Positions 1,448 through 25,260 of a DNA stretch of 27,335 bases are shown here, one piece after another. This stretch comes from a virus. The translations under genes and the position numbers were made by a program. Each line of letters starts with the position of its first letter. Position 1 is the stretch's first letter. The stretch covers positions 1-27,335 of IMG/VR virus record IMGVR_UViG_3300020197_000123, one strand, 5' to 3'. Below the pieces are notes generated by a model that was given only the letters and a program-made list of their open reading frames with translations, did no database searches and was not told where the DNA came from.

Positions 1448-4186
1448 TTATCCTGCAGGTGTTGCAATTGCTCTATAATTGCGAACTTGTGGAATAACAG
1501 CTGAACTTCCAGCTGTCATTACAATTTTAATTGCATAATACTTAAACTTACCACCCAGCGGATAAGTTACACCATTTTCTTCATATGAAGCCTTGTTATA
1601 ATCTAAACTTGGTCGATATTCGAGTTCAATCACTTGATTTTGATCTTTAGAGAAATTGTCATTGACTTTATACATCAACTGCCATTTCTTTTCTTCAAAA
1701 GCCTGATTATCGTCAGCTGATTTAATCTTGTAATAAACTACAACATCAGTTTCAACTGGACGATTGCAATCTAGATAAACTCTCAAATCTCCTGCATCAA
1801 ATCCATCTGCAAGTGTAACAGTCTTAGAGACATACTTGGCTTTACAATTACCACCAGAAGTACCATTTTCACCAGCAATCACTGCAGTGGCATTTGCTGT
1901 GGCGCTTGGTTCTGAAAATGTAACTGTTGGTGCTTTGTAGTATCCAGAACCTGGATTATCAACAACAATTACAGACACGTTTCCAGTGTATCCTGTGATA
2001 GGAGAAAGCGCAGCCACATAAGCATTTGCCGTAACACCATCAATACGATCAGGTGCTGAGAACGTCATAGTGATATTTGCAGCATTCGAATGTTGACCAA
2101 GATTTGATAGTGTAATATCAGCAACAGAAATACCTGCATCATTAATCACATACTCAGTAGCAACTGCGCACACACTTTCCATATCGATTGTAGGTGCAAT
2201 GTATGGATCGTTTGTTGTCAAATCAATTTTTACCAATAGTGATTCATTATTACCTGCTACAATTCTTCTTCTACGGAATCCTGTTTTTGTAGAAGTTTGT
2301 AAATCGCCGCCAAAGTCGTAAAATTCATTTTTACGAATTTTCTTCCAATCGCTATCATGAGTTCCGTCGATAGTGGTTGATTTGAAAGAATAGTCAATAG
2401 ACGTTGGTTTAAAGTTGAAATCACTCGAATGAATTAGCAATGAGTCGACATTAATATTAGAAAGAATATTATCTGTCATAAACACAATGCTGTTGGAAGT
2501 TGAGCCAGCCCAGTTATTATAACGAACTCTAAACATCAAATCTTCATTTGGAATTGGAGTCCAGTTCGAAGCATTTTGGGCTTTAAAGAACTGTCCAATA
2601 TATGGCTGTTCTGAAACTCTTCTCGGTGGCGTTGTGCCGAGAATATCACCACCAATTTCCGCAACAAATAAATTATAATCTGGAGAAGATGTGGTTACAG
2701 TGATTGCATATTCCTTTGAAGGTTTTACAATTACTGGTGGCGAGAATTTAAACGTTGTAAAATCAGATTCAGCATATGGAATTGTAGATGTTTTCACATC
2801 TTTTGCATCTACCATGCTTTGACCAAGAATTCGAGTTGTTGGCAATCCATTTTCAAACTCATTAATTGTTACCATGATAGGTAATTCTAAGTCGCCGCTC
2901 GTTGGTTTAGCCGAGAAGTATAGATCAACTGATGAGATTTGTAATGCAGTCAATGGCGCAGAAACACCATTTGTATGCGTATTTTGAGTTGCTGGAGTGA
3001 AGAATGATTGAGACAGTGGGAAAAATTTACGATTATTTGTAGCAATATCAGGTAACATAGCTGCTACTGGGAAATCACCAGAAATGCGCGGGACTGGCAT
3101 TAATCTTGCAAATCCGCTATTTGGACCAGCACCATAATCATTCACAGCGCGCATCGTATAATTTTCTGATGTGCTAGTTGCTGCATCAGTAACTGTAAAT
3201 GGAAGAATGCCTGTTGGGAAAGAAGCACCATTAGTTTCTGGGACATTAAACATACCAGCAATTCCACCATAATCGTCAACCTCATGATCACCGTAAGAGT
3301 ATCTTGAATTTGAAGATACACCAACGTTTGCACTAAGTGTAATCATAAATCCATTAGCGGAAACTGCATTGATTGTTCTTTGAGCTGTCACGCCTGCACC
3401 TGCAGCAATTCTAAATGTATTACCTACAGCAGACGCTAAATTGCCAGATACATGAATCACATTTGTATCATTTGCAGCGGTATATGAAACTACGCCAGAA
3501 TAATGCTCATGAGAACTTACTGTTGCAGTTTTACCAGAACTCCAGCCAACACTATAAACATTTGATCCGACTGGGAATGCATTTGCTACTGTTTGATTTG
3601 GACTTACATTCAAACGAATATTTTGATTATCTCTTAAGAAGATAATTGAATTTGGACTAAACTTTCTAAATGAACCATCAACAGGTTTAATTGCCATATA
3701 AGCATGTGAAGTGCTTGTATTTTGATAACGTTCAACAATACCAGCAAATGTAATTTTTCCACCAATTTTGTCAGATGCAGTTTGATAAACAACATCTTGC
3801 TCGATTACAGTTGTTGATGATAATGTATTTCCTGCAAAAGGAGCTACATTTACGTTGATAAAATTTTCGTTTAGATAAACAAAATTGTTAGATGATGAGA
3901 TTACTTTCGCAAATGCATTTGTCGTTGTATTAATAATAGACTCATCGTTCCAAAACGATGTATAACCTTCAGGCGACGTAACATTTGTAACAGTGAGTTT
4001 GTTTGCTTTCTGTGTAAATGGTTTGACATCAATTTTGTCAAAGAATACGTTAGCCTTTTTATCTGGGCATAACCCGCGACCAAAGAATGAAACTTCTTGT
4101 GAACGCATAAAACGAGTGAATTGAACTTTTCTCGTAGCATCTTCAGTAATTGAATTTTTAAAGTACTGATCTATTGATTCTGACAT
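1448..4186 (-). CDS. Large virion structural protein (912 aa), DUF4815-neighbour type
   Basis: A 912-residue protein preceded by a strong ribosome site (GAGGA, about 10 nt before ATG). Near the N-terminus, QFTRFMRSQEVSFFGRGL followed by PDKKANVFFDKIDV resembles a segment ('R...V.F...GL.P....YAFFD..DV') that I recall from the C-terminal part of large DUF4815 virion proteins of marine T4-like phages. Here it is a separate gene directly after the DUF4815 gene. The rest is Thr/Ser/Asn-rich and beta-type with no catalytic motif, as expected for a baseplate-periphery or fibre-attachment protein. Residues about 735-775 (PGSGYYKAPTVTF) carry a small Gly-Tyr beta module also present in three neighbouring genes. 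The C-terminal 170 residues include YLDCNRPVETDVVVYYKIKS. A structural role is confident; the precise location in the virion is inferred. Confidence 0.75.
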   Translation of the reverse strand: MSESIDQYFKNSITEDATRKVQFTRFMRSQEVSFFGRGLCPDKKANVFFDKIDVKPFTQKANKLTVTNVTSPEGYTSFWNDESIINTTTNAFAKVISSSNNFVYLNENFINVNVAPFAGNTLSSTTVIEQDVVYQTASDKIGGKITFAGIVERYQNTSTSHAYMAIKPVDGSFRKFSPNSIIFLRDNQNIRLNVSPNQTVANAFPVGSNVYSVGWSSGKTATVSSHEHYSGVVSYTAANDTNVIHVSGNLASAVGNTFRIAAGAGVTAQRTINAVSANGFMITLSANVGVSSNSRYSYGDHEVDDYGGIAGMFNVPETNGASFPTGILPFTVTDAATSTSENYTMRAVNDYGAGPNSGFARLMPVPRISGDFPVAAMLPDIATNNRKFFPLSQSFFTPATQNTHTNGVSAPLTALQISSVDLYFSAKPTSGDLELPIMVTINEFENGLPTTRILGQSMVDAKDVKTSTIPYAESDFTTFKFSPPVIVKPSKEYAITVTTSSPDYNLFVAEIGGDILGTTPPRRVSEQPYIGQFFKAQNASNWTPIPNEDLMFRVRYNNWAGSTSNSIVFMTDNILSNINVDSLLIHSSDFNFKPTSIDYSFKSTTIDGTHDSDWKKIRKNEFYDFGGDLQTSTKTGFRRRRIVAGNNESLLVKIDLTTNDPYIAPTIDMESVCAVATEYVINDAGISVADITLSNLGQHSNAANITMTFSAPDRIDGVTANAYVAALSPITGYTGNVSVIVVDNPGSGYYKAPTVTFSEPSATANATAVIAGENGTSGGNCKAKYVSKTVTLADGFDAGDLRVYLDCNRPVETDVVVYYKIKSADDNQAFEEKKWQLMYKVNDNFSKDQNQVIELEYRPSLDYNKASYEENGVTYPLGGKFKYYAIKIVMTAGSSAVIPQVRNYRAIATPAG

Positions 4187-4206
4187 AGTATCAAATCCTC
4201 GTTATT

Positions 4207-7200
4207 TTAAAATACTTCCATATTGGTAAATTCGGCATCCAAGTTAAAATCACCTGCGCTTCCACCACTTGTGCCTGTATCACTTGGAGTTGCAAACACT
4301 TCTGGTGTGTAAACTGGAGCAGAATACCAGGTATCAACAACTGCAACTTGCGGCGCTGCACCAACAATATCAGGTGGAATTTCAACCAATGGTGGCGGAA
4401 ATATCTCAGCAAAATTAATTGTAAGCGCACCGCCCAATGTTAATCCAAAATTAATTGGCGATGGAGTTGGTGGTGGCGATGCAGGAACTGGTGGTGAAGG
4501 TAAGACCAAAAATTCACCAACTTCGAATGGATCGGGATGTGGCATAGCTCTCATAATTGATCGTGGTTCAAATGGTTCTGGACGATCTATTGGCGGTGGT
4601 GCCACATATACTGGTGGTGGAGGTGGTATAAATGGAGGAGGCACATATGGCGGAGGCGGTGGAATAACAGGTTCAACAGGAGCCTGAGCCAATGGTGGCG
4701 GAGGAGGTGGAGGTGCTGGTGGTGTTACAGGAACTTCAATGGGTGGTGGAGGAGGCGGTACATAAGGAGGAGCCGCTGGCGCACCAGCTACTGGTAATGG
4801 CAACACAGGTGTTGGTGATATTAACACAGGTGGTATGATAACAGAGAAATAATTATCTGATGACGGAACTAGTGTCAACCATCCATCAAACTTAGCCGCC
4901 AAAACTGGAGGAATAACTGCAGTATTTTTTGTTGCTGCTGTTTGATTGTTAATGATAATTTCTTCTGATGGAATTGTCCACATGGTTTTTCTTGCATGTG
5001 TTGGATCATTTGGTTTAAGATATATTCGATCGTATGGAATCATATTAATATTTGTTGTTTTTCCATATGGCTTCAATACACCCTTTTCAATAGAGCACTT
5101 AAAGTCTGGGCTAGTTGTATCACCAACAGAGAATCCACTGAAATTGTCGACAACCATGCCATATTTTTCTTTCTGTGTAGCGTTATCTTCATAGAACAAC
5201 GTTGAATCTTTTGCTTTTGTTTCTGCTAAAGACAATGCAGAATAATACTCTACATTCTTAATTCTTTGTTCTAGTTTACCAATATCACGCATTGTGTAGC
5301 GACGATGATCCATTGCTTTTACAGTAATATCTCTTGGAGAATTAGTATAAGCAGGAATATCAAGCATGAATAATGTCATTGCATCAGAAAGATCTGCTGG
5401 ATATTTTGGATTCTTATCTGGAATTCCATTGATCAATTTTAATTCTTTTGATGCAGTAACTACAATTTTATCCTTTCTTGGAATATAGTATTGATATGTC
5501 ATTTCCATTGATTGATATGGAAGCGGAATACGTGATCCGAAGAAAGTATTTGCAGTTGTTCCCAATGTTCTTGTTGGACGGAAATCAATACTATCACGCA
5601 ATGGATATGATGTTCCATCGCTAGATTTAAATATTGGAATTTCTCCGTTTTCATACTGCGCTGCTGGATAAGAATCTACGTTAAAATAACCAGCAGTTGT
5701 TGCATGCTCATAGTATTCTAGAATTGCAACTGTTTGTCCACGTGGAGGATTTCTACCAGCCTTTAAAACAAGTTTAGAGTGATCGTAGTATTCTGGTGTT
5801 TGACCTGGATCCAAATAGAAACTTGATGTCACATCAATAACATTTGTTGTATTCGGAGCATAAGAAATGCTACCAGAATCATATACTTTTACAAGTTTAT
5901 AAACATCAGGAATAAACAATGAAGTGTTTCCACCAGGTGTTGTATTAATTACTGATGGATCTGTAAACCACACACGACCATTTGCAGTGTCAAAATAAAC
6001 ACTAGTGCATCCACTGACTGATGTTGCTTGACCACCTGTATAATTTGCAGTTGCTGTTAAAGTTGTATTAGCAACATTACCTTTCTTTGTTTTTAGGCGT
6101 CGATTATGATCTTCAGAATTGTCCATCTTAACACGAACATACACATCAGCGGTAAACGATCCGTTGAGACCAGAATTGATTGTTAGACCAGTGCTTGATG
6201 TTCTTGTGATGCTTGATGGAGTAATAATGTCACCAACTGCAACTGACGTTGCATTACCACTATAAGCTGTTGCTGTACCGAGCGAACGAATCGCGATAAT
6301 GAAGTTTTGATTAATAAGTGCAGAAGAAATTGTGCTTCCATCTGATCCATAATCAAGCACCTCATTATTTGTTAAGGTAAGTGATAGAATTCCGCCAGCA
6401 TTAAATGATTGTGTACTGAAAAACCTACTTGTTACATAATCAGCATTGTCAATTGTGCTGTTTGCGATCTGCGCTTCTGGTAATTTAAAGATTAAGATTC
6501 TGCGATTTGTATCGTACACAATCGTGCCACCAGCAGTATCTTTACTATTATTCGATACATTCATAGAGAAATTAAATGCAGCCTTAGAAGATACTACATC
6601 TACGAGCGAATCAATATCCTTTGTGCTATAAAGTAGAGCAAATGTTTGACCAGTACCAATCAAACCACTAAATGGAAGATCAACCACACCAATTCTTGTT
6701 GTTGAATTGTAGGCTACAATTTTACGCACATCACCTGCAGAAGCACCAGAAGTAATTCTAACAGAAACATTAGTATATGCACCACTTAAATTTGAGTAGT
6801 TAACAGGAAAATTAATGGCAAGTGTATTTGCACCAGTTGATCCTGCTGTTACTGTGTTTGATTCAAGAGCAACGTCGCTCAAATAAACAATATATTCTGT
6901 TCCAGCATTACGTGTGATATGCTTTAACTTAGCACTGCCCATGTAGGTAGCATTGTAAGTAATCGAATTTGTTGTATTGATGCTATTTTTTGGAACACAA
7001 TGCAACTCTAATGTTGGAAGGCTAGAAGTATTTGCGAATCCATTTGCAGAACCTACAATGGAATTTGCATATAGATAATTTCCATATTCAAGAGATAGGT
7101 CAAAGTCAGTAGATGTTTGCTTGGTTCTCGCCTTTAATCCTTCGATTCTTTGCGGACCAATGGCTTCGTATTCGAATCCTTTGACATATGCTTTGCCAGG

Positions 7201-8148
7201 TTCAATAACAGCAACATACTTTTCTGTATTTGCAGTGTTTGCTTCTAGCGATAATTTAAATGGAGAAACTGTATAGTCACCAGACTCATCATAGGTACGG
7301 CGAGCAAGAGTTTTCTCAAGTTCAGTATATATTGGGTACTTAACTTGTTTGGTGATTACTCCATTTTCGATACGAAGAAGTTCAAAGAACTTTGTATCGT
7401 CTGAAGAATTCAACGCTCTCTTTGATAATTCTAATTTAAATTGATAACGATGCGCGCCTGGAGCTTGATAGTTAAATGAAGCCTGTGCTGGATCTAGAAG
7501 ATTCGCATCTGCGCTCTCATCAACAATCTTTTCTACAATTTGTAAACCAACTTTATATGATGGAGTATTTCCATATGCATCGAGCACAATTGACTGTTCT
7601 GCTACTTGAACAAAGAATCCATCAACATAGAATACTCCAGGTTGAATAGAAGCAACTGAGCCGAATCCAGTTGCAGCTGATGCCAAAAGTTTGGCTTCAT
7701 CACCGCCTGATTCTGCATTAGAGATAACTTCATTATTTGAGAATATTGTTCCTCTCAAATACTTTAACATAAGCGTTGGAAAAGTTTGAGATTCGTCCGA
7801 GGCAACAACTTTAGCTCGAATTTTAGAAGTGCCAGAAACGTTGCGAACGATTGCACTATCAAAATCTTCCACATCAACGTCAGAACCATTGTAAGAAGTC
7901 TGCAATTTAATATAAGGAACCTTCAAATCATAAGTGATTTGACCGCCATAAACTGGTGAACCATTTTGAAAGATATGATCGCCAAACTGTTTAATTTGAT
8001 TTTGAATAATACTTTGAATTTGCGTAAGTTCACGAGCCTGAACTGCATATCCAGGACGAAATAAAATACGCATGTAATTTTCTTCTTTGGCTCCATTGGA
8101 GGCTTGGAAGTCGTCGTAAAATGGCTCTACATTAAAATCTGTTGACAT
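4207..8148 (-). CDS. DUF4815-containing virion protein with proline-rich C-terminus (1313 aa)
   Basis: The N-terminus (MSTDFNVEPFYDDF, then NYMRILFRPGYAVQARELTQ and an IQNQIKQFGDHIFQNG segment) is the signature of the DUF4815 family of marine T4-like phage virion proteins. These are large proteins expressed with the baseplate genes. AGGA lies 9 nt before the ATG. Residues 1 to about 1100 are mostly beta-rich with many Asn/Thr/Ser. Around residues 960-1000 a short helical region (MRDIGKLEQRIKNVEYYSAL) probably forms a trimeric coiled coil. About residues 1105-1232 are extremely proline-rich, with runs of six and seven prolines, then an acidic Gly/Ser tail ends in MEVF. It is probably a baseplate or fibre-network component. 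The polyproline part may be an extended spacer or a protein-binding arm. Confidence 0.8.
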   Translation of the reverse strand: MSTDFNVEPFYDDFQASNGAKEENYMRILFRPGYAVQARELTQIQSIIQNQIKQFGDHIFQNGSPVYGGQITYDLKVPYIKLQTSYNGSDVDVEDFDSAIVRNVSGTSKIRAKVVASDESQTFPTLMLKYLRGTIFSNNEVISNAESGGDEAKLLASAATGFGSVASIQPGVFYVDGFFVQVAEQSIVLDAYGNTPSYKVGLQIVEKIVDESADANLLDPAQASFNYQAPGAHRYQFKLELSKRALNSSDDTKFFELLRIENGVITKQVKYPIYTELEKTLARRTYDESGDYTVSPFKLSLEANTANTEKYVAVIEPGKAYVKGFEYEAIGPQRIEGLKARTKQTSTDFDLSLEYGNYLYANSIVGSANGFANTSSLPTLELHCVPKNSINTTNSITYNATYMGSAKLKHITRNAGTEYIVYLSDVALESNTVTAGSTGANTLAINFPVNYSNLSGAYTNVSVRITSGASAGDVRKIVAYNSTTRIGVVDLPFSGLIGTGQTFALLYSTKDIDSLVDVVSSKAAFNFSMNVSNNSKDTAGGTIVYDTNRRILIFKLPEAQIANSTIDNADYVTSRFFSTQSFNAGGILSLTLTNNEVLDYGSDGSTISSALINQNFIIAIRSLGTATAYSGNATSVAVGDIITPSSITRTSSTGLTINSGLNGSFTADVYVRVKMDNSEDHNRRLKTKKGNVANTTLTATANYTGGQATSVSGCTSVYFDTANGRVWFTDPSVINTTPGGNTSLFIPDVYKLVKVYDSGSISYAPNTTNVIDVTSSFYLDPGQTPEYYDHSKLVLKAGRNPPRGQTVAILEYYEHATTAGYFNVDSYPAAQYENGEIPIFKSSDGTSYPLRDSIDFRPTRTLGTTANTFFGSRIPLPYQSMEMTYQYYIPRKDKIVVTASKELKLINGIPDKNPKYPADLSDAMTLFMLDIPAYTNSPRDITVKAMDHRRYTMRDIGKLEQRIKNVEYYSALSLAETKAKDSTLFYEDNATQKEKYGMVVDNFSGFSVGDTTSPDFKCSIEKGVLKPYGKTTNINMIPYDRIYLKPNDPTHARKTMWTIPSEEIIINNQTAATKNTAVIPPVLAAKFDGWLTLVPSSDNYFSVIIPPVLISPTPVLPLPVAGAPAAPPYVPPPPPPIEVPVTPPAPPPPPPPLAQAPVEPVIPPPPPYVPPPFIPPPPPVYVAPPPIDRPEPFEPRSIMRAMPHPDPFEVGEFLVLPSPPVPASPPPTPSPINFGLTLGGALTINFAEIFPPPLVEIPPDIVGAAPQVAVVDTWYSAPVYTPEVFATPSDTGTSGGSAGDFNLDAEFTNMEVF
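4450..4836 (-). repeat. Low-complexity polyproline-coding stretch
   Basis: The plus strand is dominated by GGTGG/GGAGG runs; read on the minus strand they give CCA/CCT/CCG proline codons with interspersed Val, Tyr, Ala, Ile. Runs of up to seven prolines occur, and a 'PPPPxVxPP' pattern recurs. The repeat is imperfect at DNA level. Confidence 0.8.
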
Positions 8149-21651: not shown

Positions 21652-22199
21652 TGCCAGCTTTACTCGAGAAAATAACTCGTGAAATGTCCAAAAAGGGCAT
21701 TAAACCTCGAACAGAGGAAGCCAAGGCATTTATTCAAGAAATGATCTCTAAAACAACGATTTCAACTAGTCGATCGAATGTTCTAAATGATGCCAAACGT
21801 TTAACTCCATTCGCCGCTGTTGGTCGTATGTTTATGTTTCGATACGATCCTCTTACTAAGGAAAGACTCCCACAATGGGACGAATTTCCGTTGGTGATCC
21901 CAACTACGGTAACGGGTGATGGATTTACGGGGATAAACTTACACTTCCTGAATTCAAGTCAACGATTAACTATTCTAGACGGATTGTCAATCTTCCTGAA
22001 TAACGATAAATATGATGGTTCTACAAGATTTATGCTCTCTTATGATTTACTTTCGAGCATGAGTCAATTTTCAGGTATTCGTGATTGTATGAGAAGATAT
22101 CTGTATCAACAGATGGTATCGCCGATGATTTACATTGAGCCGAACCAATGGGAAACAGCCATTTTCTTACCTGTTGCGAATATGAGGAGCAATGCTTAA
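21651..22199 (+). CDS. Conserved T4-like phage protein of unknown function (182 aa)
   Basis: 182 residues; the ATG overlaps the gp4 stop (TAATG), so translation is coupled. The N-terminus is helical and basic (LLEKITREMSKKGIKPRTEE). The core carries a pattern I recognise as conserved in marine T4-like phages: GRMFMFRYDPLTKERLPQWD, then EFPLVIP, GDGFTGINLHFL, and near the end YLYQQMVSPMIYIEPNQWET plus AIFLPV. I cannot assign it to a named T4 protein from sequence alone. Its place between gp4 and a tube-fold protein suggests a structural or assembly role in head-tail or baseplate building. No catalytic motif is seen. Confidence 0.8.
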   Translation: MPALLEKITREMSKKGIKPRTEEAKAFIQEMISKTTISTSRSNVLNDAKRLTPFAAVGRMFMFRYDPLTKERLPQWDEFPLVIPTTVTGDGFTGINLHFLNSSQRLTILDGLSIFLNNDKYDGSTRFMLSYDLLSSMSQFSGIRDCMRRYLYQQMVSPMIYIEPNQWETAIFLPVANMRSNA

Positions 22200-22993
22200 T
22201 GTCTTTAAATCCAAAAAATCTTTTAAACGTAAGTAATTTTCTCTCTCAAGTAAGAAAAAGTGGTTACGCAAGAGCCAGTAAGGTTGCAATTGCAATTTTG
22301 CCACCGAGCCAACTTCTCAACACTCTTCGTTTTAAACTTCCATCGTTATTACAAAACGACTTCTTAACTTATTACTCAGAGTCTGTTGCATTTCCTGGAC
22401 TGAACATTTCTTTGAATAATATGAATTATGGTGGACCTTTGATGAAGGTTCCAGTGAGCACAGACTACAATGAAGTTCAAATCACATTTTTGGTTGATGA
22501 TGAGATGCGTCAGAAGACCTTTTTTGATGCATGGATGAATTTCATAAATCCAAAAGAGAATAAATTTGATTTTAGATATAGAGACGATTATATCGGTGAG
22601 GTATTAATTTTGCAGTTATCTGAAACAGGCAAATATTTTCCTTATGCAGTCAAACTATTCGAAGCATTCCCTGTATCGATGAATGAAATTCGTGGATCTT
22701 GGGCTGATGCTGGCGAAGCAGTTCGCTTGGATGTAACGTTCTCATATCGATATTGGAAAAATCTAAGATCGAGTGACTTTGAGAGAGATGATGCAAATGC
22801 TGAAGAGGATGTAATTGGTATTGATATTGAGAGCAAAGACACTCCTGAAGTGGTGGGCATTGATATCTTTAGTCGAAGAAAAGAAGAACTAGTGGGTATC
22901 GATATCAGAAGCAGAAGAGGAACAGAAGGAACTGAAATAGTGGGTATCGATATCGGAAGTACATCAGCAAGACCAAGAAATAGAAATAGTTAA
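22199..22993 (+). CDS. gp54: Tail-tube-fold protein, probable gp54-like tube initiator, with GIDI repeats
   Basis: 264 residues starting at ATG 22199, which overlaps the preceding stop (TAATG) with AGGAG nine bases before it. The upstream in-frame ATG at 22148 lies inside the previous gene and is rejected. About residues 40-195 have the tail-tube-protein pattern: ESVAFPGLNISLNNMNYGGP, VSTDYNEVQITFLVDDEM, FFDAWMNFI, then FPVSMNEIRGSWAD and LDVTFSYRYW, close to the gp19-type 'L.V..ALDYW' ending. Single-copy tube-fold proteins of this size next to baseplate genes are usually gp54, which works with gp48 at the start of the tube. Residues about 205-254 add four GIDI repeats not found in T4 gp54. 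Tube fold 0.8, gp54 identity lower. Confidence 0.65.
   Translation: MSLNPKNLLNVSNFLSQVRKSGYARASKVAIAILPPSQLLNTLRFKLPSLLQNDFLTYYSESVAFPGLNISLNNMNYGGPLMKVPVSTDYNEVQITFLVDDEMRQKTFFDAWMNFINPKENKFDFRYRDDYIGEVLILQLSETGKYFPYAVKLFEAFPVSMNEIRGSWADAGEAVRLDVTFSYRYWKNLRSSDFERDDANAEEDVIGIDIESKDTPEVVGIDIFSRRKEELVGIDIRSRRGTEGTEIVGIDIGSTSARPRNRNS
22811..22960 (+). repeat. Four GIDI-motif coding repeats
   Basis: The sequence encodes VIGIDIESKD, VVGIDIFSRRKEE, LVGIDIRSRRGTE and IVGIDIGSTSA in succession, with unit spacings of about 14-18 residues. The nucleotide core GG(T/C)AT(T/C)GATATC is nearly constant. A related GIDV repeat occurs at 24728-24811 in another gene. Confidence 0.85.
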
Positions 22994-23006: not shown

Positions 23007-23729
23007 ATGGCTTTACCAAAAATTGATTTACCGACTTATAAATTGAGACTTGAATCGCTAGACAAAGAAATTACTTTTAGACCTTTTGTAGTAAAAGAAG
23101 AAAAGATTCTTCTTATGGCTTTAGAGTCTAATGATTATACAACTAGTTTAGATGCAATTAAACAAATAATTAATAATTGCGTCTATGATCAGATAGAAGT
23201 AGATTCTCTGCCGTTATATGAAATCGAATATTTGTTTTTAAATTTGCGAGCAAGATCTATCGGTGAAATTGTTTCATTAGAGTTTATTTGTGAGAATGTG
23301 ATCGATGATAAAAAAAAGTGTAAAGGCAGAATGGAGTTAGATGTAGATTTGTTAAAGGTTGCATTAGAATACAAACCACGTTCTAGTAATATTCCGCTTA
23401 CAAACGACATTGGAATTAAACTACATTATCCGACATTCAGTGTATCTAAAACTTTAATTGAGAAGTTTAATACGAAAGATATGCCGATTGAAATTCTCAA
23501 AGAATGCACAGAATACTTGTATGATGATAGTCAAGTATATAAACTAGATGAGATGTTGGAAGGTGAATTTGAACAGTTTATTAATAACTTAACAACAGAA
23601 CAATACAAGAAGATCAAGAATTTTTTCAAAGAGATTCCAATGCTTCGTCACGAAAGCACAATAGTTTGCAAGAAGTGTGAAAAAGAACACTTTATCAAAC
23701 TGGAGGGTCTCCTCGATTTTTTCGTATAA
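23007..23729 (+). CDS. gp26: Baseplate hub assembly protein gp26
   Basis: 240 residues (T4 gp26 is about 208). The segment EITFRPFVVKEEKILLMALE is the hallmark of the T4 baseplate/tail-chaperone family that includes gp26. A second conserved block is YEIEYLFLNLRARSIGEIVS. Four cysteines (C95, C105, C221, C224) could form a zinc ribbon joining the middle and the C-terminus (CKKCEKEHFI). A GGAG ribosome site lies 7 nt before the ATG. In T4, gene 26 is followed by gene 51, and both help hub assembly. Here the last codons, GAT TTT TTC GTA TAA, contain a canonical -1 slippery heptamer leading into a conserved-looking extension (see 23717 and 23723). The gene probably yields a short and a long product. 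Confidence 0.85.
   Translation: MALPKIDLPTYKLRLESLDKEITFRPFVVKEEKILLMALESNDYTTSLDAIKQIINNCVYDQIEVDSLPLYEIEYLFLNLRARSIGEIVSLEFICENVIDDKKKCKGRMELDVDLLKVALEYKPRSSNIPLTNDIGIKLHYPTFSVSKTLIEKFNTKDMPIEILKECTEYLYDDSQVYKLDEMLEGEFEQFINNLTTEQYKKIKNFFKEIPMLRHESTIVCKKCEKEHFIKLEGLLDFFV
23717..23723 (+). promoter_or_regulatory. Probable programmed -1 frameshift site T_TTT_TTC
   Basis: The heptamer T TTT TTC is in the correct phase (X XXY YYZ) with the gp26 frame, two sense codons before the end (Phe-Phe-Val-stop). Slippage by -1 continues as Arg-Ile-Ser-Leu-Arg-Asn for 65 residues, ending at 23920. A small inverted repeat, TGAAGT-CAT-ACTTCA (23748-23762), lies about 24 nt downstream; that is farther than usual for a stimulator. 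Confidence 0.7.
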
Positions 23730-23920
23730 GCCTTCGTAATGAGAGTCTGAAGTCATACTTCATGACCAATTTTGCATTGATGCAGCATCATGGATATAGT
23801 CTCACGGAACTTGAGCAAATGCTTCCGTGGGAAAGAACAATGTATGTTTCTTTAGTGGCGCAACACGTCAAAGAAGAAAACGATAGAATAAGAGAACGAT
23901 TGTCGAAGAGTAAAAGATAA
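23723..23920 (+). CDS. Frameshift extension of gp26 (gp51-position ORF)
   Basis: This -1-frame segment follows the slippery site and would add 65 residues to gp26 (304-residue fusion). It reads LRNESLKSYFMTNFALMQHH, then GYSLTELEQMLPWERTMYVS and a charged helix (HVKEENDRIRERLSKSKR). The residues before the first ATG (23762) look as protein-like as those after it. The ATG has no ribosome site and sits inside a small hairpin, so separate initiation looks poor; it would give only 52 residues. 'YSLTELE.MLPWER' is a pattern I recall from small proteins following gp26 in marine T4-like phages. It ends in a TAATG overlap with the next gene. It is in the place of T4 gene 51 but much shorter than gp51 (about 249 aa), so I do not give it that name. 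Confidence 0.75.
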   Translation, partial: RISLRNESLKSYFMTNFALMQHHGYSLTELEQMLPWERTMYVSLVAQHVKEENDRIRERLSKSKR

Positions 23921-25260
23921 TGTTTGTACCAAATATAGATACGCTTAGAAATAACTTTTCAAGTTTTGCAGCTAGAGGTGCAGAACCATCGATGAACTTC
24001 GCATCGAGATTCGGTGGGTATACTGGAACACCTTTTATTGCACAACAATTTAGAGGCGAACCTGATGAGGGATTTAAGAGAGTAATTCCAGATTCTAAGA
24101 GATATGCTAATGCGTTCAATATAGATCAAGAAGAAACAGTCAAATCTTCTGCTCCTGAATCGACATACACGCCACCAAGTGTAAATGAACCCACCGTATC
24201 GACGATTCCAAAAAGTTTTATTTCGAATTTGACAGCCTCTCAAAGTTACGTTCAAAGAACAGAATCAGATGAGAGTATGGTAAATGCAGCTGCAGCTTTA
24301 AAAGCAACAGAAAATACAGCAACCACTGCAGTTCAAAATCCAATATTCGATCCAGTTAAACTTAGATCTCTAATTGATAGTTATAGTAGAGGATCTTTTA
24401 ATGTAGGATTGAGAGCTCCTGCGAATGAGTCATATCGTGAAATCATCGCGAAAGAAGACACTACAATGCCGATGGTAGACGATTACAGCGTCAAATCGCA
24501 AGATCAAACAAAATTAGAACCACAAGCAAAAAGTGTGGCGGCTGAAACTACGAGCACAGAAACAAAGCCACAGGTGGTAATGCCAGAACCAAAACCACAG
24601 GTGGTAATGCCAGAACCAAAACCTCAGGAACAACTTACTTATACTCGAAGCAGTGTCGCAGATAAACAATCAGATACTACTCCAACAATGAGTGATAGAA
24701 ATTTTATTCAGGAAGCAATGGATGATATAGAAGGTATCGATGTCCAATCATCAAGAGGAAGTGCAGAAGGTCTAGAAGGTATCGATGTCCAATCATCAAG
24801 AGGAAGTGCAGCAGAAAGACGTCCAGATAATCCATGGGAAAGATTTAAACAACTCTACGTTGACTTCTATACAGGTGGGCGTGGTGAAGATATTCTGCAA
24901 GAATTTAACCGCAGAGAAGATGCTGGCGAATTCAGTAACATTTATAATGATGCAAATTCAATGAGCAATCTCAATAAAAAATCATACACAGAATCATCCA
25001 GCAGCGCAGGGAATATGAACCGCGATACGAATGTGATTATGCAAGCGAAAAATGAAAGAGATGAATTAGTTGGACCATATCAGCAAGATATGATGGGCAC
25101 AAATAATTCTAGACAATTTGGCAGTCCAACCGTCATAAACAATAATCAAACTTTTGCTACGAATAAAACTAATGATGGATCACGAACATCGCGAGTATTC
25201 AGCGACGATAGCACATTTAATCGTCACGCTTCGGCAGATATGTTTCATCCAAACAGATAA
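23920..25260 (+). CDS. Repeat-rich structural protein following gp26 (446 aa), function unknown
   Basis: 446 residues; the ATG overlaps the stop of the gp26 extension, so translation is coupled. The composition is rich in Ser, Asn, Thr, Glu, Gln and Pro, and most of it looks disordered. The N-terminus (NIDTLRNNFSSFAARGAEPS, MNFASRFGGYTGTPFIAQQF) and the C-terminus (VINNNQTFATNKTNDGSRTS, then FSDDSTFNRHASADMF) look the most structured. Residues 217-234 are a perfect double PQVVMPEPK; about 270-298 are two EGIDVQSSRGSA units related to the repeats in the tube-fold gene. About 308-330 form a compact segment (NPWERFKQLYVDFYTGGRGE). In many tailed phages the gene after frameshifted tail chaperones is the tape measure, which makes that one possibility, but no long helical tape-measure pattern is visible. 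The function remains open. Confidence 0.7.
   Translation: MFVPNIDTLRNNFSSFAARGAEPSMNFASRFGGYTGTPFIAQQFRGEPDEGFKRVIPDSKRYANAFNIDQEETVKSSAPESTYTPPSVNEPTVSTIPKSFISNLTASQSYVQRTESDESMVNAAAALKATENTATTAVQNPIFDPVKLRSLIDSYSRGSFNVGLRAPANESYREIIAKEDTTMPMVDDYSVKSQDQTKLEPQAKSVAAETTSTETKPQVVMPEPKPQVVMPEPKPQEQLTYTRSSVADKQSDTTPTMSDRNFIQEAMDDIEGIDVQSSRGSAEGLEGIDVQSSRGSAAERRPDNPWERFKQLYVDFYTGGRGEDILQEFNRREDAGEFSNIYNDANSMSNLNKKSYTESSSSAGNMNRDTNVIMQAKNERDELVGPYQQDMMGTNNSRQFGSPTVINNNQTFATNKTNDGSRTSRVFSDDSTFNRHASADMFHPNR
24568..24621 (+). repeat. Perfect 27-nt tandem duplication
   Basis: Two adjacent identical 27-nt units, starting CCACAGGTGGTAATGCC at 24568 and 24595, encode PQVVMPEPK twice. The identity includes silent positions, indicating recent duplication. 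Confidence 0.95.
24728..24811 (+). repeat. 39-nt direct repeat with 45-nt period (GIDV motif)
   Basis: Identical 39-nt copies at 24728-24766 and 24773-24811, separated by 6 nt, each encode EGIDVQSSRGSA. Full nucleotide identity suggests recent duplication or ongoing homogenisation. Confidence 0.95.

Follow-up and report, generated by a model that had tools for sequence, protein, structure and literature searches.

The tail assembly chaperone forms gpG and gpGT of phage lambda depend on slippage at the heptamer G_GGA_AAG, and the frameshift signal of E. coli dnaX combines a Shine-Dalgarno (SD)-like stimulator about 10 nt upstream, a slippery heptamer and a downstream hairpin. Frameshifting of the G-T type is widely conserved, with T4 as an exception (Atkins et al., 2016; PMC5009743). 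Tail assembly chaperones of T4-like phages, with short and long forms, were identified by Vladimirov, Gautam and Davidson (2022, Virology 566:9), as related in passages of PMC10885494 and PMC12846349. In some T4-like phages, the former describes two genes, one short and one long and fused, and the latter treats poly-T slip signals as known in T4-like chaperone genes. In Vandenendeviridae and Andersonviridae (phage Adele), a chaperone frameshift with a GTTTTT motif was predicted from conservation (PMC12846349). Both T4 proteins, gp26 and gp51, have been classed as hub assembly chaperones, and the particle is reported to lack gp51 (PMC3004832). The first ~200 residues are missing from cyanophage and marine vibriophage gp51 (Sullivan et al., 2010; PMC3037559).

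We analysed a gp26 locus in a 27,335-base viral record, the whole of which is called the window here (Table 1). The gp26 product matches PF12322 (T4_baseplate) at 2.4e-55 (188 bits; curated cut-off in Pfam, 24.5) and phrog_150 ('baseplate hub') at 1.8e-59, and it is the only PF12322 gene in the record, which is a fragment. Its 3' end in the 0 frame (23715-23729) reads GAT TTT TTC GTA TAA, and the -1 frame is open for 65 codons beyond it. After a -1 slip, the extension would begin CGT ATA AGC at 23723, and the predicted fusion would have 239 + 65 = 304 aa. The extension corresponds to phrog_634 ('baseplate hub assembly catalyst', gp51; 3.2e-24), with a weaker match to columns 237-282 at the C-terminal end of phrog_150; tblastn in 617-675 phage records further supports it. 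A first-pass annotation, made from the letters of the window, had already pointed out the in-phase X_XXY_YYZ heptamer and the 65-residue open frame, both of which we confirmed, and had proposed that a programmed -1 frameshift fuses gp26 to the extension. The conservation and the purifying selection described below support that proposal, and we consider it highly probable that slippage on T_TTT_TTC yields the predicted proteins gp26 and gp26-51 from this single gene.

Table 1. Features of the gp26 locus and its flanks, in window coordinates.
Feature	Position	Strand	Basis or remark
Tail-tube-like gene, upstream of gp26	22148-22993	+	phrog_45, 3.7e-25
gp26 gene	23007-23729	+	ATG 23007, stop TAA 23727-23729; predicted short form of 240 aa
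38-nt invariant block	23700-23737	+	Identical across 16 loci of the window's clade
SD-like GGAGGG, proposed stimulator	23702-23707	+	9 nt upstream of heptamer; anti-SD duplex energy
Slippery heptamer T_TTT_TTC, in gp26 phase	23717-23723	+	Sequence; 182/188 loci; codon statistics
-1 frame extension (gp51, or C-terminal part of the tail assembly chaperone)	23723-23920	+	65 codons, 23723-23917; stop TAA 23918-23920
Region of stimulatory hairpin in relatives	23730-23760	+	Weak, not conserved by itself in the window's clade
Downstream ORF, position of relatives' tape-measure-like gene	23920-25260	+	Position

The heptamer and the -1 geometry recur in 182 of 188 homologous loci and span phages of at least seven host groups; the loci were taken from viral-contig homologues, from named phages and from S-PM2-type sequences. 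The conservation of heptamer and overlap that the first-pass annotation expected in marine T4-like phages is thus present. Nearly all of the 79 viral-contig homologues (33-99% identity) have NNT TTT TTY near the stop and an extension in the -1 frame; those first taken for exceptions carry it a few codons farther from the stop, on the upstream side. Besides cyanophages, the site-bearing phages include Cr30 (Caulobacter), DLP6 and Yut3 (Stenotrophomonas), phiN3 (Sinorhizobium), RL38J1 (Rhizobium), Va3 (Vibrio), AsFcp_1 (Aeromonas), Melnitz (Methylophilales), Mosig (Pelagibacter), and Desulfovibrio phage 7757. In RL38J1 the site is T_TTT_TTG, so that the run of six T is retained although Phe is replaced by Leu. 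Loci were located by scans with single proteins; the diverse gp26 alignments offered no conserved stretch usable for such searches, and a scan with the Desulfovibrio protein found no loci.

Six of the 188 loci have no in-phase site. Five are of Ackermannviridae type (L091, L092, L190, L191, L192); where the heptamer would stand they have ATT_TTC or CTT_TTY, and the extension is still in the -1 frame; several carry TAATG, and others have no early ATG. In the sixth (L109), reading is broken near position 2247, where the slip run has one T fewer than in its near copy L108 from a Stenotrophomonas phage, and we treated it as a likely homopolymer indel or sequencing error. No extension having its own ribosome site and no slippery site was found in the window's lineage, and the heptamer is absent only from the Ackermannviridae-type relatives.

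Codon use at the site was examined in 92 representatives at 90% identity. The codon before the two Phe codons ends in T in 92/92 (log10 P = -17.4) and the first Phe codon is TTT in 92/92 (log10 P = -17.7), both values being conditional on site-bearing loci and ignoring shared ancestry. The second Phe codon is TTC in 76 representatives, compared with 32% of Phe codons elsewhere. Elsewhere in the 92 gp26 genes, in-phase T_TTT_TTN occurs 10 times in 19,503 codon positions. The heptamer at this spot is far beyond chance.

The first-pass annotation was right about the heptamer but missed two further parts of the signal, an SD-like element upstream and a hairpin downstream in relatives. The duplex energy of GGAGGG with ACCUCCUU is -9.8, and strong anti-SD pairing in this upstream interval is found in 79% of the 92 representatives, as against 10.7% of the matched background. 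Where the element includes a Glu codon, this is GAG in 45 of 58 cases, compared with a background use of 28%. In the 16 loci of the window's clade, the element and the heptamer lie within an invariant block (CTGGAGGGTCTCCTCGATTTTTTCGTATAAGCCTTCGT), whereas no other invariant run in the gp26 ORF exceeds 8 nt, and of the third codon positions elsewhere only ~10% are invariant. This pattern indicates that conservation around the slip site acts on nucleotides and not on residues alone.

Over the 42 nt downstream, the predicted fold is stronger than that of synonymous recodings (mean z -2.05, n=91; 53% below -2), with controls elsewhere at ~0 to -0.5. Compensatory pairs support the hairpin in two clades, with few pairs in each. 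A hairpin common to all lineages was not recovered by RNAalifold, as the register of pairing changes from clade to clade. Candidate stimulators are therefore present on both sides of the heptamer, namely the SD-like element and the family-wide hairpins, although the window's own hairpin is weak (z = -1.2).

The extension bears the marks of coding sequence. In the window's clade, codons 3-13 of the -1 frame, which precede ATG 23762, have a pN/pS of 0.21, and the codons after it have 0.15, whereas the other combinations of frame and segment are mostly above 1. These values indicate that purifying selection acts before as well as after the first ATG, including the stretch 23723-23761, where the first-pass annotation had seen protein-like, family-like residues and where selection was expected if the frameshift is real. 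Its remark that ATG 23762 has no ribosome site also holds, the anti-SD energy being -2.4 and reached only at 12-nt spacing. Upstream of 23762, the open -1 frame contains no ATG, GTG or TTG.

A second line of evidence comes from the T4-type phages, in which the two products are encoded separately. The gp51 proteins of T4, JSE, ST0, IME13, Thanatos-1 and Acj61 (~250 aa) consist of a PF12322 domain with the extension in frame, and gp26 of the same phages is a PF12322 domain alone, the end of which coincides with the slip position. The slip site and the -1 extension are absent from gp26 of JSE, ST0, IME13 and Thanatos-1. The number of PF12322 genes is one in 13/13 site-bearing phage genomes and two in 4/4 T4-type genomes. 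In an unrooted tree of 37 rows, one side of a branch (98/92) holds both the g51 clade (100/100) and the g26 clade (94/90), with all one-gene phages on its opposite side, including the Straboviridae Va3, AsFcp_1 and one further relative. Judged by homology, T4 gp26 and gp51 are the same short/long pair, specified by paralogous genes. At one T4-type gp51 locus (L204), the match spans 746 nt, which is not a multiple of three, and its frame may be broken.

GenBank annotates the extension in S-PM2, P-SSM2, Mosig and others as a stand-alone gp51, a small gene that would be read from its own start codon or by stop-restart coupling after gp26. An ATG overlapping the gp26 stop in 9 of the 92 representatives would suit such a gene, as would the Ackermannviridae-type relatives without heptamer, several of them with TAATG. 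Yet the residues ahead of the first ATG are conserved, 54 of the 92 representatives have no ATG within the first 12 extension codons, and Cr30, Va3, Yut3, RL38J1 and S-CRM01 keep the heptamer despite an overlapping ATG. The window itself has no overlapping start and no SD sequence for ATG 23762, and the gp51 of T4-type phages is a fusion rather than the short piece. We rejected a separate gp51 gene as the main explanation because of the conserved residues before the ATG, the retained heptamer and the fused T4-type gp51, and regard it as improbable; the overlapping ATG means that coupled re-initiation may coexist in those nine representatives.

Two other explanations concern the T run itself. 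RNA polymerase could slip on it and give a mixed mRNA, for which a run of six or seven T in an AT-rich context would be suitable. However, the run is usually exactly six T followed by C, and the preference for TTC shortens it; moreover, a fixed phase and a conserved SD-like element at dnaX-like spacing would be needless for a polymerase. With the run kept short, the phase fixed and the element conserved, polymerase slippage was also rejected as the main explanation and appears even less probable than a separate gene. Alternatively, the site might be conserved for the sake of the protein only, since gp26 ends in a conserved G-L-x-D/N-F-F motif, and the open -1 frame would then be incidental. 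This is hardly credible and was likewise rejected, being contradicted by the synonymous invariance at the site, by the coding-type selection seen for the -1 frame, and by the T4-type phages, which have a fused homologue.

The first base of the ORF downstream of gp26 is also the final base of the stop codon that ends the extension. In Cr30, phiN3 and Va3, the corresponding gene is similar to tape measure proteins; no tape-measure match was obtained for it in P-SSM2, in Mosig or for the window ORF. Four 'GIDI' motifs (VGIDIxSRR-like) stand in tandem at the end of the upstream tail-tube-like gene, and the downstream ORF has two 'EGIDVQSSRGS' motifs; motifs of the GIDI type were not found in the ten minus-strand ORFs searched. 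Elsewhere in the window (1448-8148, minus strand), two adjacent ORFs (912 and 1313 aa) each match a separate part of phrog_358 (2056 columns, function unassigned) and are possibly a split giant virion gene. Confident AlphaFold2 models were obtained for gp26 (pLDDT 88.9) and for a T4-type gp51 (pLDDT 91.9), the latter with a helical extension. As to the fold of HK97 gp13 and YqbN, when the gp26 model was compared with the PDB by Foldseek, only HK97 gp13 (2OB9, 0.63) and 3FGX (0.60) exceeded a probability of 0.5 among the matches listed, both weakly with E ~1 (2OB9, E = 1.1); these two structures are tail assembly chaperones (PMC9603447). Among the matches listed for the gp51 model, there was no tail assembly chaperone. 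A G/GT-type chaperone role for gp26 and gp26-51 appears likely.

In the frameshift mechanism that we favour, the majority of ribosomes would terminate at TAA 23727 and release gp26 as the short tail assembly chaperone. A minority would slip back one base on T_TTT_TTC during decoding of the two Phe codons, aided by pairing of GGAGGG with 16S rRNA and, in many relatives, by the hairpin just downstream. The slipped ribosomes would translate 65 more codons, and the resulting gp26-51 fusion of 304 residues would be the long chaperone. The part common to both forms may coat hub or tape measure proteins, while recruitment of tube or hub subunits may fall to the helical extension, as in gpG/gpGT of lambda. 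T4-type phages would obtain the same pair from the paralogues gp26 (short) and gp51 (long, an in-frame fusion). The sequences themselves show the signal and its conservation, the coding constraint, the paralogy and the distribution of one-gene and two-gene phages; ribosome slipping, its frequency and the chaperone role are what we infer from them.

We lean towards a broader reading, in which a dnaX-like cassette (SD-like GGAGGG, U_UUU_UUC and a lineage-swapped hairpin) makes the 26/51 pair across most of the T4 superfamily and is ancestral, and T4-type Straboviridae replaced recoding by gene duplication. That recoding came first is suggested by its breadth, the tree being unrooted. T4 would then look like an exception to G-T frameshifting because duplication had replaced recoding there, which would link the recoding literature (PMC5009743) to T4 genetics. 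The frameshift mechanism itself, independently of this broader reading, explains why cyanophage gp51 seems to lack ~200 N-terminal residues. It also corrects the annotation of hundreds of phage records, in which the 175-195 nt ORFs called 'gp51' in cyanophages and their relatives become the 3' end portion of the gp26 gene. The mechanism also predicts that the ratio of gp26 to gp26-51 matters for hub or tail assembly.

The first-pass annotation treated this arrangement as apparently undescribed for T4-type gp26; for T4-like phages as a class it is not new, since PMC10885494 and PMC12846349 refer to their chaperones as already identified. Given that identification (Vladimirov et al., 2022) and the known poly-T signals, the core idea has probably been published. 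The dnaX-like signal is apparently undescribed, and the cassette and its breadth may be new.

Among the closest known systems is T4 gp26/gp51, which by homology are the same proteins, with short and long forms sharing an N-terminal domain; in T4, however, gp51 is a separate in-frame fusion gene, whereas the window has one gene and a predicted -1 slip. The likeness to lambda G/GT noted in the first-pass annotation is borne out by the architecture, by the order of genes and by the paralogy with T4 gp51. Short and long forms, with a slip near the end of the short gene, are known in lambda and predicted here; the lambda gene lies between tail-tube-type and tape-measure-type genes, and the window has a tail-tube-like gene upstream and, downstream, an ORF in the position of the relatives' tape-measure-like gene. 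Unlike lambda, the window has a T_TTT_TTY heptamer, an SD-like element upstream, hairpins downstream in the family, a shorter extension, and unrelated sequence. Adele-type phages are likewise myophages with a predicted poly-T -1 signal where the chaperone gene ends, but they belong to other phage families and were compared by signal and position. The three-part layout of SD-like stimulator, heptamer and hairpin is that of E. coli dnaX, from which the locus differs in having U_UUU_UUC instead of A_AAA_AAG and a weak hairpin in the window's clade; the dnaX shift gives a shorter product, whereas the slip here would give a longer one.
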